Shown here: piece after piece, positions 39,395 through 47,116 of the stretch
Layout: every line of letters begins with the position of its first letter
Numbering within the stretch: position 1 is the first letter of the stretch
Origin: Thermodesulfobacterium hydrogeniphilum
GTDB lineage: Bacteria > Desulfobacterota > Thermodesulfobacteria > Thermodesulfobacteriales > Thermodesulfobacteriaceae
Direction of reading: 5' to 3'
Assembly (NCBI RefSeq): GCF_000746255.1
Contig: NZ_JQKW01000010.1
Location: 62,001-126,000, forward strand
Length of the DNA stretch: 64,000 nt
The notes under the pieces: model-generated
Databases searched by the model: none
What the model was told of the DNA's origin: nothing
Seen by the model: only the letters and a program-made list of their open reading frames with translations
Made by a program: the position numbers and the translations under genes

Positions 39395-40270
39395 ATGATA
39401 AATTTAGTTATTATTACAGGTATTTCTGGATCAGGTAAAAGCACTACTTTAAAAGCTTTTGAAGATATGGGATATTTAGCTATTGATAATTTTCCGATTC
39501 GGCTTTTATCTCTATTTCTAAAAGAAGTGAAAGAAAGCTTAGATAATAGAGATATAGCTTTGGTAATGGACTTAAGAGATAAATATTTTTTAAAAGATTA
39601 TCCCAAGATTTTTCAAGAACTCAAAAATAAAGGATATAATTATGAAATAATATTTCTGGATGCAAAAACTGACATCCTTATTACAAGGTTTAATCAAACC
39701 CGTAGGATACACCCTTTAATGAAAGAAGGGATAAGGAGTTTAGAAGAAGCTATAGAAAAAGAAAAAAAACTTTTGGCAGATTTAAAAGAATTGGCAACTT
39801 TATTTTTAGATACCTCTAATTTTAATATTCATCAACTCAGAAATGAAATTTTTAAATTTTATAGAAATAGAAATTTACAAAAATTGGTATTACATTTAAT
39901 AGCCTTTGGTTACAAATATGGAATTCCCAATGAAGCTAATTTTCTTTTTGATGTAAGAGTCTTACCAAATCCTTATTTTGTACCTGAATTAAAAACTCTA
40001 AGCGGAAGGGATAAGGAAATAAAAAAGTATTTATTAAGTTTTTCCGAAACAACGCAATTATTAAATTATTTAGAAGAATTTCTAAATTGGTTAATACCTT
40101 TTTATTATAAAGAAGATAAACATTGTTTGACCATTGGAATAGGTTGCACAGGTGGACGACATAGATCTCCAGCTGTTATAGATTTCTTAACTGAAAAATT
40201 GCAATTGAAATATCCTGATATAGATATAGTAGTTACTTATAGAGATATAGAAAAGGATGTTAAGAATTAA
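39395..40270 (+). CDS. rapZ: RapZ-family nucleotide-binding RNase adapter
   Basis: The N-terminus has a Walker A loop G-I-S-G-S-G-K-S (about 9-16) in 'VIITGISGSGKSTTLKAFEDMGYLAIDNFP'. The C-terminus carries the RapZ sensor domain with 'GIGCTGGRHRSPAV'. In E. coli RapZ directs RNase E to the GlmZ small RNA and so adjusts glmS expression; glmS is nine genes downstream in this same apparent operon, though GlmZ-type control is not expected outside Enterobacteria. Length (291 aa) is normal. It starts 5 bases after hpf. Confidence 0.93.
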   Translation: MINLVIITGISGSGKSTTLKAFEDMGYLAIDNFPIRLLSLFLKEVKESLDNRDIALVMDLRDKYFLKDYPKIFQELKNKGYNYEIIFLDAKTDILITRFNQTRRIHPLMKEGIRSLEEAIEKEKKLLADLKELATLFLDTSNFNIHQLRNEIFKFYRNRNLQKLVLHLIAFGYKYGIPNEANFLFDVRVLPNPYFVPELKTLSGRDKEIKKYLLSFSETTQLLNYLEEFLNWLIPFYYKEDKHCLTIGIGCTGGRHRSPAVIDFLTEKLQLKYPDIDIVVTYRDIEKDVKN

Positions 40271-40707: not shown

Positions 40708-41712
40708 ATGATAAGAGTTGGAATAAATGGATTTGGAAGAATCGGGAGATGTATCTTGAGGGCAAGATTTAAGTATCCAGAGTTTAATAATATTGAAATA
40801 GTAGCTATAAATGATCTTTCTTCTCCAGAGATGTTGGCTCACCTATTTAAATATGATACTATTTTTGGTAGATTACCCTATGAGGTAGAAATACAGGGAG
40901 ATTATCTTATTATTAATAAAAAGAAAATAAGAATCTTTAAAGAACCTGATCCAGAAAAAATTCCCTGGAAAGAAGAAGGGATTGTTTATGTAATAGAATC
41001 TACGGGGAGATTTAGAGAAGGAGATTTGGCTCGTAAGCATATTTTAGCAGGAGCTAAAAGAGTGATTATATCCGCGCCTGCCAAAAATGAAGATATAACT
41101 ATTGTGATGGGAGTAAATGAAGAAAAATATGATCCTACTAAGCATTTTATTATTTCTAATGCCTCCTGTACAACTAATTGCTTAGCACCTATTTTGGCAA
41201 CTTTAATCAAGTATTATGAAATAGAAAAAGGTTTTATGACAACAGTTCATTCTTACACAAATGATCAGAGATTGTTAGATATGATTCATCCTAAGGATTT
41301 CAGAAGAGCAAGAGCTGCTGCCCAAAATATTATTCCTACTTCTACTGGAGCAGCTAAAGCTATAGGAAAAGTTATACCAGAGCTTGCAGGAAAAATAGAT
41401 GGCATGTCTATAAGAGTTCCCACTCCTAATGTTTCCTTAGTGGATTTAAATATTTTAATTAAAGGAGAAACTACTCCTACAGAAATTAATAGAATTTTTA
41501 AAGAAAATCAAAATAGATATATTAGATATATAGAGGAACCTTTGGTTTCTTCTGATTTAATAGGAGATCCTCATAGTGCTATAATAGATGGTTTATCTAC
41601 TAAAGTAATTGATAAAAATTTGATAAAACTCTTAGCTTGGTATGATAATGAGTGGGGTTATTCTGTAAGAATGCTTGATCTTTTAAACTATATGATACAA
41701 AAAGAAATATAA
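40708..41712 (+). CDS. gap: Glyceraldehyde-3-phosphate dehydrogenase, type I
   Basis: NAD-binding start 'IRVGINGFGRIGRCILRA', catalytic cysteine block 'SNASCTTNCLAPIL', 'HSYTNDQRLLD', 'RRARAAAQNIIPTSTGAAKAIG' and 'WYDNEWGYSVRMLDL' are all standard. 334 residues is the normal length. It converts glyceraldehyde 3-phosphate to 1,3-bisphosphoglycerate and back. A strong AAGGAGG site is present. Unusually, a second, longer gap paralogue lies 4.2 kb downstream in the same operon, separated by the half-dikinase gene. Confidence 0.96.
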   Translation: MIRVGINGFGRIGRCILRARFKYPEFNNIEIVAINDLSSPEMLAHLFKYDTIFGRLPYEVEIQGDYLIINKKKIRIFKEPDPEKIPWKEEGIVYVIESTGRFREGDLARKHILAGAKRVIISAPAKNEDITIVMGVNEEKYDPTKHFIISNASCTTNCLAPILATLIKYYEIEKGFMTTVHSYTNDQRLLDMIHPKDFRRARAAAQNIIPTSTGAAKAIGKVIPELAGKIDGMSIRVPTPNVSLVDLNILIKGETTPTEINRIFKENQNRYIRYIEEPLVSSDLIGDPHSAIIDGLSTKVIDKNLIKLLAWYDNEWGYSVRMLDLLNYMIQKEI

Positions 41713-41721
41713 AAAAATTTT

Positions 41722-44700
41722 ATGGAACAATTTACCTCCAAGGCTTTATTAGCAAATTTAGCCTGTACTTTTGTAAAAGAAGTCCATTATGATCCTAAAT
41801 ATAATATTTTTCTGGAAATATTTTCTAAATACCCAGCTTTAAAAAAACAGATAAAAATACTTTTAAAAGAAGCCTTTCATCCTTACAAAAATAGTTATTT
41901 AGTTTTAGAAGAATTCAGAAGTTTTTTTTTAAAAAATCTTTCTATACTTTTTAAACATCCTTATAAATCTCAAGGTTATTGGCTTATTTTTGATATTCTT
42001 TTCAAATTTTTTGAAGAAGATAAAAACCTAAATATAAAAACTGCTGAAACTATATTTTCAATTTTAGATAAAACCGCAAATATTTTAGATCCTGATACTT
42101 TTTATGAGATAATTCCTATTTTTAAAGAGGTTCTTAAAGCTATCATAAGCCTTCCTGATGAATATTTTTTGAACTTTTTAGAAAATTATTATTCTTTCAA
42201 GAAACTAATTCTTAAATTAATAAAATTATCTCCTTCACAGGAGTTAAAGGGAATATATATAGAACTTTTAAAGAGATCTTACATTTTAACTTATAATCTT
42301 TGGAAAAAACTCGGGGAAAAATATGCTAAAAATTTGCCAAAAAATTTGTTCTATTTAAAAATTGATAAATCAATATTTGATGTTTCTTATTTTGAAAAAT
42401 TAATAAATTTGCTAAATCAGGATAAAATAAATTTACAAAATTTATTAACTTTACCAGATCATTTGGATTTATTGAAAAAACTCAAAGATTTTATTTATTT
42501 TATCAATACTTCTGATTCTCCAAACATTTCAGATGAAATTAAAATTGAGTTTTTATTTGAACTAATAGAGACACCTATTTTAAGATTAATTCATGAAGAA
42601 TTGATTAGAGAAGTTAACAATAATTTAATATTTTTAATTAATTCTAAACCTTCTCAAAATTTAGATGAATTTATTATAAAATTTTTCAGGATATTAAAAG
42701 AAAAGTTGCATTTGTATCCTTGGACAGCTTTGGAGTGTATCAAAAATATAGGAATATGTGTTTTAAATAAAAAAGATGTTTATTTAATAGAAATTTTAAT
42801 TAATGAAATCATAAAATTTGGTTTTCAGCCTCCTCAGATAAAAGGAATAGATGCCAATTGGAGGATTAAACAGAATCCTAATCATCTCCTAAATATAAAA
42901 GTTTGGTTAGACATATTTAAAGCAAATCCAGAATGGTGTAGTAGCTTATTAGCAGGTTTAATATTAAATTTAAAGTTATACGGAGTTTCTATAAAAGATA
43001 CTGATCTTTTTCAAAAAGATATTACTAATTTGCTTAATTCTCCTATAAAGCCTGTTTATAATCTTATTAAACAATTCTGTAAAATTTTACCTATTTACTA
43101 TAACGAAATAGGAGCTGAGGGACTTATAAGAGATATTTCCACAGAAATAGATGAGATATTTCAGAGAAAGGATTCGCTCATTTACTTTTTAAGAAAATTC
43201 GTTCATATAGAAAATTCAAGTTTAGCAGTAGATTTTATAAAAAATATATTAAATTACTGGCTTACTTTAAATGAAGATTTTATAAAGAAATATTTACCTG
43301 AAGAATTATTTTATAGAATTACTCAAGAAGAAAAAGAATATCATATAAAAATGCAAACTTTGTTAAAACAATTATGCAATATTTTTAATTATAAAGATAT
43401 CAACGATATTTTAAATCAGGATGTAAAAATTATTGAAGAACAAGTTGAAAGTATAGAGTTTGATAAAAATTACAGAAAGAAACTTGTTTTACTCATTAAA
43501 TTATATCATTTAGAATATCAAAAGTATTTTGGAGTATTAAAAGATATAGATATTTTGACTACACAATATTCTCCTAAGGATTTTCCTTTTGTTTTGAAAA
43601 TAAAAGAAATTTTGGAAAGTAAAGAATTAGATATTTACAAAAAAGTAGAAATAATTTTAGATTGGCTGAATGAGCTAAAAGAGATAATTCTTTCTAAACA
43701 AAAATTTACTCCTGTAGAAGAAATTTTGCTTAAAAGACATGTGGCTGTGGATATACCTTCTATGTATGGAAGATACAAAGAAAAAAAATTTGATGCCTTG
43801 GGTCTTTCTTTTAGATTAGAATATTTAGTTAATTGCCTTTTAGAAAAACTGGTAGAAGACCTTGATTTGCAGTTTATTACCAGAGCTTTCTTTTTTAAAA
43901 TTTTCAAAATATTAAAACTATTTAAAAAAGCTTTAGAGATTGATGGAATTTTTTCCCAAAAATTTGATCTTTATTTAAATCTTCTTGAAAGCTCGTTGAA
44001 GAGTTATCCTTTAACTTATACTCAATATTTAGATATATTTAAAGGTTTAATAGATGGAGTTCAACATATCGTAAAAGTTTATTATGTAAATCCTTATCTA
44101 AAGGTTTTTCCCTTAGTATTTGAAGTTCTTAATATGGAAGAAGTACAGGATAAATATAAAAATTGTTTATACGGATTAAATAAGGAACAAAGTTATTTTT
44201 GCATCAGTGAAATGGTTATAAAAGATGCTATTGAGTCTGCTTTTGCTTTAAAATATTTGGATAGATTTTTAAGAAAATTATACCAGATATTAACTTCTTA
44301 TTTTGAAAAAATTGATAAAAAAGATTTGAATTTGTTAATGAGCTATGATCCAGGAAGAACAATTTCTTTCATACAAAATCCCAATAATTTAGTTATAGAT
44401 CTTTTGTATTTAGGAAACAAAGGTTACAACTTAATAATTGTTTCTAAAGAAAATAATGATTTTAAGATAAAAATTCCTTATGGTTTTATTTTAACTACAG
44501 AGGTATTTAGATGTTATAAACTTATTTCAAAGTATTCAGAGCTTTGGAATGATTATGAAAACCGAATAAAAGAAAATATCAGTTTATTAGAGCAATTAAC
44601 CAAAAAAAGATATGGAGATAAAGAAAATCCTCTGCTTTTAAGTGTAAGGAGTGGAGCTCCTATTTCCATGCCTGGTATGATGAATTCTATTTTGAATGTA

Positions 44701-45879
44701 GGTATTAATTTAGAAACAGTAGAAGGTTTATTTAAGCAAACTAAAAATTTGTGGTTTGCCTGGGATACTTATAGAAGATTTATTCAGAGTTGGGCTATGG
44801 CTTTTGGTGTTTCAAGGGATTTTTTTAATAATTTAATGAGGGAACACAAAAGGAAATACAAAGTAAAAAAGAAAAAGGAATTTACAGGAGAACAGATGCA
44901 GGAATTAGCTCTTATTTATAGAAAATCTGTAGAAAAGTTGGGTATTCCTGTTATAGATGATCCTTGGGAACAATTGTTTAAAAGCATAGAACTTACTATG
45001 AATTCCTGGTATAACCAAAAGTCTATGGCTTATAGAGAAATTATGCAGATAGCAGAGGAATGGGGAACAGCAGTAATAGTTCAGCAAATGGTTTTTGGAA
45101 ATAAAAATCCTTCTTCAGGTACAGGAGTTACTTTAACCACTTCACCTGTAGGAAAATTTCCAAGGATTATTCTTTGGGGTGATTATACTCCATATAATCA
45201 AGGAGAAGACATTGTTTCAGGACTTGTAAATACATATCCTATATCTTTAGAACAGAGAAAAATAGAGGGAAGAGAAGGACCTTCTTTACAAGAGGCTTTT
45301 CCTGAAATTTATCAAAAGCTTTTAGATTTTGCTTATTATCTGGTTTACGAAAAAGGCTGGGGACATCAGGAAATAGAATTTACTTTTGAAAGTGAAAAAG
45401 CTGAAGATCTTTATGTTTTACAAATAAGAGATATTATTTTAAGAGAGGAAAGAGAAATTCCATTTTTTAACAAAAAGTTATTAAAAACCTTAGAGTGTAT
45501 AGGAAAAGGTATAGGAGTTTGTGGAGGACTCATTTCTGGAAGAATAGTTTTTACTTTAGAAGATATTTTAAAATTTAAAGAAAGAAAAGAGCCTTTGATT
45601 TTACTTAGATATGATACCGTGCCTGATAACATTAAAGAGATTTCTTTAGTAGATGGCATCTTAACAGCCAGAGGAGGACAAACTTCTCATGCAGCTATTG
45701 TTGCTTCAAGACTTGGAAAAATATGTGTAGTAGGGTGTGAGAATTTAAGCATAGATGAGATTAAAAAAGAAGTAAAAATAAATGGATATACTTTAAAATT
45801 AGGTGATTGGATTACTTTAAATGGAACAAATGGTCAAGTTTTTAAAGGAAAAATAGAAGCTTTGGTTAAAATAAATTAA
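41722..45879 (+). CDS. Half dikinase: ATP-grasp and phosphohistidine domains with ~890-aa unknown N-terminus (1385 aa)
   Basis: The C-terminal 490 residues match the nucleotide-binding and swivelling domains of pyruvate phosphate dikinase. Seen are G-N-K-G (898-901), 'SVRSGAPISMPGMMN' (from 974), 'AVIVQQMVFGNKNPSSGTGV', 'YNQGEDIVSG', and 'GILTARGGQTSHAAIVASRLGKICVVGC' with the phosphorylated histidine at 1323. The protein ends right after this domain; the PEP/pyruvate-binding TIM barrel is missing. Residues 1 to about 890 are helical-repeat-like and not recognised. It can plausibly phosphorylate its own histidine from ATP, but the acceptor is unknown. No ribosome site is clear; the ATG is 10 bases after gap. 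Flanking gap genes suggest a place in lower glycolysis or gluconeogenesis, by context only. Confidence 0.85.
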   Translation: MEQFTSKALLANLACTFVKEVHYDPKYNIFLEIFSKYPALKKQIKILLKEAFHPYKNSYLVLEEFRSFFLKNLSILFKHPYKSQGYWLIFDILFKFFEEDKNLNIKTAETIFSILDKTANILDPDTFYEIIPIFKEVLKAIISLPDEYFLNFLENYYSFKKLILKLIKLSPSQELKGIYIELLKRSYILTYNLWKKLGEKYAKNLPKNLFYLKIDKSIFDVSYFEKLINLLNQDKINLQNLLTLPDHLDLLKKLKDFIYFINTSDSPNISDEIKIEFLFELIETPILRLIHEELIREVNNNLIFLINSKPSQNLDEFIIKFFRILKEKLHLYPWTALECIKNIGICVLNKKDVYLIEILINEIIKFGFQPPQIKGIDANWRIKQNPNHLLNIKVWLDIFKANPEWCSSLLAGLILNLKLYGVSIKDTDLFQKDITNLLNSPIKPVYNLIKQFCKILPIYYNEIGAEGLIRDISTEIDEIFQRKDSLIYFLRKFVHIENSSLAVDFIKNILNYWLTLNEDFIKKYLPEELFYRITQEEKEYHIKMQTLLKQLCNIFNYKDINDILNQDVKIIEEQVESIEFDKNYRKKLVLLIKLYHLEYQKYFGVLKDIDILTTQYSPKDFPFVLKIKEILESKELDIYKKVEIILDWLNELKEIILSKQKFTPVEEILLKRHVAVDIPSMYGRYKEKKFDALGLSFRLEYLVNCLLEKLVEDLDLQFITRAFFFKIFKILKLFKKALEIDGIFSQKFDLYLNLLESSLKSYPLTYTQYLDIFKGLIDGVQHIVKVYYVNPYLKVFPLVFEVLNMEEVQDKYKNCLYGLNKEQSYFCISEMVIKDAIESAFALKYLDRFLRKLYQILTSYFEKIDKKDLNLLMSYDPGRTISFIQNPNNLVIDLLYLGNKGYNLIIVSKENNDFKIKIPYGFILTTEVFRCYKLISKYSELWNDYENRIKENISLLEQLTKKRYGDKENPLLLSVRSGAPISMPGMMNSILNVGINLETVEGLFKQTKNLWFAWDTYRRFIQSWAMAFGVSRDFFNNLMREHKRKYKVKKKKEFTGEQMQELALIYRKSVEKLGIPVIDDPWEQLFKSIELTMNSWYNQKSMAYREIMQIAEEWGTAVIVQQMVFGNKNPSSGTGVTLTTSPVGKFPRIILWGDYTPYNQGEDIVSGLVNTYPISLEQRKIEGREGPSLQEAFPEIYQKLLDFAYYLVYEKGWGHQEIEFTFESEKAEDLYVLQIRDIILREEREIPFFNKKLLKTLECIGKGIGVCGGLISGRIVFTLEDILKFKERKEPLILLRYDTVPDNIKEISLVDGILTARGGQTSHAAIVASRLGKICVVGCENLSIDEIKKEVKINGYTLKLGDWITLNGTNGQVFKGKIEALVKIN

Positions 45880-45892
45880 AAGGAGGTTAGCC

Positions 45893-47116
45893 ATGAAATT
45901 AGGTATTAATGGTTTTGGAAGAATAGGTAAACTTACTCTTTGGCATCATGTAGCAAGAAAGTATTTTGATGAAATAGTAGTAAATATAGGAAGAGAAGTA
46001 GGAACTTCTTTTTCAGATATAGCAAGTTATATAGAAAAAGATAGTACCTATGGATGGTTACCTGTTTATCTTTACGGACATAAAGCTAAAAGAGTTATAG
46101 AAAATCTGAATGAAAAAGAAGGCACTATGTATGTAGATGGTATAAAAGTTAAATTTTTAAGAAAAACAAGAAACCCTAAGGAGATTAATTGGAGAGAAGA
46201 GGGGGTAAGATTGGTTGTAGAGTGTTCTGGGAAGTTTAGGGATCCTAATATAGATCCAGATAATCCTAAAGGATCTGTGAGAGGTCATTTAACAGCAGGA
46301 GCAGAAAAAGTAATAGTTTCTGCACCCTTTAAAATAAAAGATAAAGAAAAGGGAATACCGGAAGATGCAGTTACAGTAGTATATGGAATTAATGAAGACG
46401 TGTATCAACCTAATAAGCATAATATTATTTCAGCAGCTTCTTGCACCACTACTTGTTTATCTTACATGGTAAAACCACTTTTGGATTACTTTGGAGCAGA
46501 TAGAATTTTATCTGCTTCTATGGTTACAGTTCATGCTGCTACAAGTTCTCAGGTAGTTTTGGATAGACTTCCTAAGGAAGGAAAAAAGGATTTAAGAAGA
46601 ATGAGAAGTGTGTTTAATAATATTATTTTAACCACTACAGGAGCTGCAGAGGCTTTAGCTCTTGTTATTCCAGAAATGAAAAGAATAGGATTTATGGCAG
46701 AAAGTGTAAGAGTGCCTTTGACTACAGGAAGTTTAATTATTCTCACAGTAAATATTCAGGATGAAAGTGTAGAAAATCATATCAACCGTGAGCTTATAAA
46801 TAATATTTATAAAGAAGCAGCAAGCACAAAATATAAAGACTATTTAATTTTTACTATGGAACAAAATGTATCTTCTGATATAATAGGATATCCAAAAGCT
46901 GCAGCTATAATTGAAGGAGCAGAAACACATACAAGAACAGCTCTGGCAAAGGTAGATATCTGCAAAGTTTTACCTGAGATAGGAAAAGAAGTTTGCACCC
47001 ATGTTGAAATACCTGTTACACAGGTGGTTGTTTATGGATGGTATGATAATGAGCTTGGATCCTATACTAATATGTTAGGAGATCTTACAGTATTTATTGC
47101 TGAAAAGATGATTTAA
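45893..47116 (+). CDS. Second, longer glyceraldehyde-3-phosphate dehydrogenase paralogue (407 aa)
   Basis: The GAPDH fold is clear: 'KLGINGFGRIGKLTLW', catalytic 'AASCTTTCLSYMV', 'TVHAATSSQVVLDRLP', 'NIILTTTGAAEALA' and 'YGWYDNELGSYTNMLGDL'. It is about 70 residues longer than the upstream gap product, with insertions around residues 30-50 and 95-135 ('PNIDPDNPKGSVRG', 'KDKEKGIPEDA'). The conserved C-T-T-N-C reads C-T-T-T-C. Two divergent GAPDHs often split into glycolytic and gluconeogenic or NAD and NADP forms; the direction here cannot be told. It has an AAAGGAGG site and lies 13 bases after the half dikinase. Confidence 0.88.
   Translation: MKLGINGFGRIGKLTLWHHVARKYFDEIVVNIGREVGTSFSDIASYIEKDSTYGWLPVYLYGHKAKRVIENLNEKEGTMYVDGIKVKFLRKTRNPKEINWREEGVRLVVECSGKFRDPNIDPDNPKGSVRGHLTAGAEKVIVSAPFKIKDKEKGIPEDAVTVVYGINEDVYQPNKHNIISAASCTTTCLSYMVKPLLDYFGADRILSASMVTVHAATSSQVVLDRLPKEGKKDLRRMRSVFNNIILTTTGAAEALALVIPEMKRIGFMAESVRVPLTTGSLIILTVNIQDESVENHINRELINNIYKEAASTKYKDYLIFTMEQNVSSDIIGYPKAAAIIEGAETHTRTALAKVDICKVLPEIGKEVCTHVEIPVTQVVVYGWYDNELGSYTNMLGDLTVFIAEKMI

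Follow-up and report, generated by a model that had tools for sequence, protein, structure and literature searches.

A dikinase-like protein family without a PEP/pyruvate barrel, paired with a variant glyceraldehyde-3-phosphate dehydrogenase in Thermodesulfobacterium hydrogeniphilum and its relatives

Among the dikinases that have been described, pyruvate phosphate dikinase (PPDK) catalyses a reversible reaction, and plant glucan, water dikinase (GWD) combines a long N-terminal part with the absence of a phosphoenolpyruvate (PEP)/pyruvate barrel; in GWD the histidine domain precedes the ATP-grasp domain and carbohydrate-binding domains are present. In rifampin phosphotransferase (RPH) the barrel is swapped for another acceptor module, the domains follow the order ATP-grasp, acceptor, histidine, and the product phosphate is bound in the acceptor domain through Arg666, Glu667 and Lys670 (PMC4844700). 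The two-component phenolic dikinases HpeHI, CreHI and PpsAB have likewise exchanged the barrel, and their histidine component alone moves phosphate between small molecules (PMC12167813). Both RPH and the phenolic enzymes have a PEP synthase-like ATP-grasp domain and a catalytic histidine near the C-terminus. The subject of this study is a gene of Thermodesulfobacterium hydrogeniphilum, here called HALF (half-dikinase), on a stretch of 64,000 nucleotides (the window; contig NZ_JQKW01000010.1, positions 62,001 to 126,000), whose product joins the ATP-grasp and phosphohistidine domains of a dikinase to a long N-terminal module and carries no barrel. No description of the HALF family or of its operon was found in the open-access literature. 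The parts of the gene, in window coordinates, are these:

41722..45879, + strand: HALF coding sequence, 1385 amino acids, from the open reading frame and domain search
41722..44391, + strand: N-terminal helical module, residues 1-890, without a Pfam or PDB sequence match
42709..44379, + strand: conserved core of the N-terminal module, residues 330-886, confidently modelled
43714..43779, + strand: conserved beta-hairpin, residues 665-686, placed by alignment and model; candidate acceptor or substrate loop
44410..45429, + strand: PPDK-type ATP-grasp domain, residues 897-1236, with the invariant K900, R976, E1219, Q1234 and R1236
45508..45861, + strand: phosphohistidine (swivel) domain, residues 1263-1380, from domain search and alignments
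45688..45690, + strand: codon of H1323, counterpart of the PPDK catalytic histidine

The dikinase part of HALF most resembles PPDK (TIGR01828; 1KBL), with which it shares both domains, the catalytic residues and, without large gaps, the GNxxxxSGTGV loop. Pfam places PPDK_N at residues 897-1178 (87 bits) and the PEP-utilizers mobile domain at residues 1290-1371 (65.6 bits), and finds no match to the PEP/pyruvate barrel PF02896 anywhere in the protein, which stops about 60 residues past H1323. Among PDB sequences, the C-terminal third aligns to Clostridium PPDK across the ATP-grasp and histidine domains, the histidine motif reading GGQTSHAA in HALF and GGMTSHAA in the Clostridium enzyme. HALF nevertheless scores below every NCBIfam family cut-off: 377 bits against the PPDK model TIGR01828 (cut-off 843), 85 and 74 bits against the PEP synthase models, the latter value belonging to TIGR01418 (cut-off 740), and 27 bits, over the ATP-grasp stretch alone, against the RPH model NF041857 (cut-off 999). 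It differs from PPDK and PEP synthase in lacking the barrel, and from PPDK also in its additional N-terminal module. Like RPH and the phenolic dikinases it has another module in place of the barrel, but its ATP-grasp domain is of the PPDK type, its order (acceptor, ATP-grasp, histidine) is not that of RPH, and its N-terminal module matches the acceptor modules of neither. Relative to GWD the domain order is reversed, with no Pfam match to a carbohydrate-binding domain, and the HPr-binding N-domain of enzyme I of the phosphotransferase system (PTS) is absent by Pfam.

It is clear that this architecture is not peculiar to one genome. Full-length HALF proteins occur throughout the Thermodesulfobacteria, and among the 295 genomes sampled from the phylum, a profile search with the N-terminal module finds HALF in 104, one copy each (split matches in one genome being counted as one gene), or in 107 if three distant paralogues are included. 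Named contigs among the matches listed belong to Thermodesulfobacterium, Thermosulfurimonas, Caldimicrobium, Desulfobulbus, Desulfurivibrio, Electrothrix and others; the plasmid collection held no match. In an alignment of 102 full-length relatives, all barrel-less, the residues K900, R976, E1219, Q1234, R1236 and H1323 are invariant, and every chain ends 57-88 residues past the catalytic histidine. The original prediction, made from the sequence of this locus alone, had pointed to the conserved R976 (in SVRSGA) and H1323 (in TSHAA) and to a barrel missing after the swivelling domain, and the family bears out both. The uniform chain end and the invariant catalytic residues rule out a local truncation of the gene, and the invariance of the ATP-grasp residues and of H1323 predicts a working ATP-to-histidine half reaction. 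An origin of HALF by decay or frameshift of a PPDK, as the absent barrel might suggest, is refuted by the relatives of identical architecture with their intact catalytic residues and by the single-copy distribution, and its probability is negligible. In two genomes a frameshift or stop interrupts HALF (L042:7933-12100, in G013, and G266:C9:32217-34929), either as a sequencing error or as a real split. The three distant paralogues, in f52 genomes without GAP2 (the partner described below), are proteins of 1485-1543 amino acids (L125:5355-9830:-, L126:5740-10365:- and L127:7873-12327:+, the last with 25% identity to HALF over residues 335-1376) and adjoin a 592-aa GAF/sigma-54 activator, possibly representing a second, signalling-type half-dikinase.

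HALF lies, as first described, between two genes for glyceraldehyde-3-phosphate dehydrogenase (GAPDH), the upstream one ending 9 bases before it and the downstream one starting 13 bases after it:

40708..41712, + strand: gap1, canonical type I GAPDH of 334 amino acids, a frequent but dispensable neighbour of HALF
45881..45886, + strand: Shine-Dalgarno-like AGGAGG of gap2, inside the 13-base gap after HALF
45893..47116, + strand: gap2, long variant GAPDH (GAP2) of 407 amino acids, the obligate co-occurring partner, with G33-R34 replacing the NAD-binding N-D

Across the phylum the neighbours of HALF are gap1, gap2, phosphoglycerate kinase (PGK) and triose-phosphate isomerase (TIM) genes in varying combinations, a conserved neighbourhood in which the triplet of gap1, HALF and gap2 is not constant: five genomes of the same genus (G001, G002, G006, G010 and G013) have neither gap1 nor a type II GAPDH that could be detected. 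It is gap2 that is the obligate partner of HALF, and gap1 is dispensable because it is absent from these five. With the long GAPDH as query (E < 1e-130 in a first set of genomes, E < 1e-60 in a second), GAP2 was found in 37/37 HALF-positive and 0/20 HALF-negative genomes of the first set and in 31/31 and 0/49 of the second, that is, in 68/68 against 0/69 with no exception in 137 genomes; where matches in HALF-negative genomes were listed, they were to ordinary GAPDH and scored far lower. The genomes are related, so that a nominal Fisher value overstates the evidence, but the zero exceptions still stand, and within families f12, f32 and f50, which hold both states, HALF and GAP2 change together. 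The two genes are within 8 kb of each other (<=8 kb) in 53 genomes and by coordinates not so in 15, one of which (G017) has them adjacent across the ends of a single contig, leaving 14 of 68 truly unlinked.

GAP2 has the Gp_dh_N and Gp_dh_C domains of Pfam and shares with type I GAPDH (GapA/GapB) its fold families and the catalytic Cys184, His214 and Arg273, but is about 70 residues longer, with insertions, and scores 345.2 bits against the type I equivalog TIGR01534, under the cut-off of 367.2. It is the only GAPDH detected in the five genomes that lack gap1, and is therefore probably functional. Changes at the N-D pair of the NAD site are tied to NADP use in known GAPDH engineering, and G33-R34 at this place suggests that GAP2 prefers NADP. 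Its family-specific invariant residues include H346-R348-T349.

The N-terminal module is, as originally proposed, unlike known dikinases: no Pfam family exceeds its cut-off in residues 1-890, and neither Pfam nor PDB sequences revealed homology to a known family. A model of residues 1-885 reached a predicted local distance difference test score (pLDDT) of 85 and a predicted template modelling score (pTM) of 0.78; its best fold matches are HEAT-type solenoids (CAND1, SF3B, importins), at template modelling (TM) scores of just 0.1-0.2. The core, residues 330-886, modelled from 49 sequences, is confidently predicted (pLDDT 87.6, pTM 0.86), and a fold search against the PDB and against viral models found nothing that matches it at E <= 0.001. 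Conservation peaks at residues 335-520 (mean 0.75) and 641-705 (mean 0.77), and many charged residues are invariant, including R470, R482, R491-K492-x-x-H495 and K671-R672-H673. The last of these groups lies on the hairpin at 665-686, the tip of which is modelled with low confidence, together with I678-P679-S680-x-Y682-G683-x-Y685. By their residues, these conserved basic segments resemble a binding site, either for an anionic substrate or for the docked phosphohistidine.

The architecture, the residue conservation, the family-wide absence of the barrel and the co-occurrence with GAP2 are direct observations, and beside them we infer a scheme in which HALF acts in the manner of PPDK and is coupled to GAP2 where 3-phosphoglycerate and triose phosphate are interconverted, a reading to which we give about an even chance. 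The barrel of a PPDK-type dikinase would here be replaced by the large N-terminal helical acceptor module. HALF would phosphorylate itself, ATP (with inorganic phosphate, by analogy with PPDK) being split at the ATP-grasp domain into AMP and pyrophosphate and one phosphate being left on H1323; the swivel domain would carry this phosphate to the basic loops and hairpin of the N-terminal module (the four groups of invariant residues named above), from which it would pass to an acceptor belonging to the GAP2 reaction. The PPDK-type ATP-grasp domain suggests inorganic phosphate as co-substrate and a reversible reaction, so that HALF could also run in reverse, to ATP. Since HALF is strictly paired with a GAPDH and its operon is one of lower glycolysis, we consider the carboxylate of 3-phosphoglycerate the most likely acceptor, itself a tentative assignment with rather less than an even chance. 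HALF and GAP2 together would then take 3-phosphoglycerate through 1,3-bisphosphoglycerate to glyceraldehyde 3-phosphate with the energetics of a dikinase, parallel to PGK. The full form of this proposal, in which HALF phosphorylates 3-phosphoglycerate at the cost of ATP to AMP and pyrophosphate and hands 1,3-bisphosphoglycerate to GAP2 as a second route over the gluconeogenic PGK step, is a shade less likely again.

Several observations weigh against coupling at this step. PGK is kept in 40/40 of the first-tested genomes, irrespective of HALF, and in nearly all others; a replacement of PGK by HALF is rejected on this ground. No substrate site can be recognised from structure, the core being without a PDB match, and the solenoid-like N-terminal part may equally bind a protein. 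In addition, HALF distances track those of GAP1 (r 0.94) more closely than those of GAP2 (r 0.79) across 23 genomes. In four f32 genomes (G143, G181, G232 and G276) the PGK family is represented by a divergent gene alone, of about 440-485 amino acids and about 250 bits, which is a weak hint at most because such genes also stand beside a canonical PGK elsewhere, whether or not HALF is present.

The main rival to 3-phosphoglycerate as acceptor is GAP2 itself. HALF could be a protein phosphotransferase that docks GAP2 on its solenoid and regulates it by phosphorylation from H1323, with GAPDH activity set by ATP, AMP, phosphate and pyrophosphate. The obligate co-occurrence with one specific protein fits such a role, as do the HEAT-type, protein-binding character of the best fold matches (low as their TM scores are), the invariant H346-R348-T349 of GAP2 and the place of the distant paralogue next to a sigma-54 activator, as is common for signalling proteins. 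The very high basic and histidine conservation in two segments of the N-terminal module suits an active site better than a scaffold, and GAP2 offers no recognised phospho-acceptor; regulation of GAP2 is possible but improbable, at roughly one chance in four.

A further reading reverses the flow, the phosphate of GAP2-made 1,3-bisphosphoglycerate passing through H1323 to AMP and pyrophosphate and so recycling the AMP and pyrophosphate of sulfate activation and adenosine phosphosulfate (APS) reduction. The reversibility of PPDK would allow it, and aprA was detected in 32/39 genomes with HALF but in 15/41 of those without it (Fisher p 4e-5, uncorrected for relatedness). This enrichment is confounded by relatedness, seven HALF-positive genomes have no aprA match, and GAP2 looks NADP-type and hence biosynthetic, which together make the reverse direction quite unlikely. 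A strict tie of HALF to sulfate reduction is rejected, aprA being merely enriched.

In several genomes, mostly of Desulfobulbales type, gap1 and HALF are preceded by a GT5 glycogen synthase-like gene, which might point to a starch or glycogen dikinase. GT5 (GlgA-type) genes are, however, present in 39/40 genomes with or without HALF, and the missing carbohydrate-binding domain and the domain order opposite to that of plant GWD also speak against a glucan acceptor, which is very improbable.

HALF might also be a component of a split PPDK or PTS-like relay, with HPr or a barrel on another protein as its counterpart. Its PPDK-type halves would suit this, and in a relative (L034) EIIA-Man and PtsN genes still stand in the same operon. 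In the T. hydrogeniphilum genome, however, the one barrel is inside a complete PEP synthase of 819 amino acids and no free-standing barrel was found, and in a complete HALF-positive genome (G054) no barrel protein (PEP synthase, PPDK or enzyme I) was detected; a barrel in trans is thus not required. HPr was not detected in seven HALF-positive genomes (T. hydrogeniphilum itself, G000, and G004, G010, G018, G054, G188 and G205), so it is not a general acceptor; overall it was found in 19/26 HALF-positive and 13/14 HALF-negative genomes. For T. hydrogeniphilum the split relay is largely refuted by these searches and is less probable still than the glucan dikinase. The original suggestion of an undescribed phosphorelay or enzyme in central carbon metabolism is well supported in the main: a barrel-less dikinase is tied to that metabolism by its conserved gap1, gap2, PGK and TIM neighbours and its perfect co-occurrence with GAP2. 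It is refined in that gap2 is the obligate partner and in that a PTS-like relay or a barrel acting in trans is unlikely. As separate observations, the PEP synthase gene (G000:C8:92912-96718) lies about 1.3 kb from the PGK gene and away from the gap operon, the window carries a RapZ family gene at 39395-40270 in a genome without HPr or an enzyme I barrel, and the route to PEP in G054 is puzzling, given that no barrel protein was detected there.

HALF extends the dikinase superfamily by a new variant, one that has a GAPDH as its obligate partner and an N-terminal module without a structural match. Few parts of metabolism are as conserved as the triose-phosphate/3-phosphoglycerate segment, and a widespread single-copy dikinase tied to one GAPDH variant would, if the proposed coupling is true, represent an undescribed enzyme or control point at this step in a large part of the sulfate reducers and their relatives, including the Thermodesulfobacteria and contigs named for Desulfobulbales, Desulfobacterales and cable bacteria. 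The dikinases would also gain a new acceptor module, and many members of the family that are probably annotated as PPDK or PEP synthase would have their annotation corrected.

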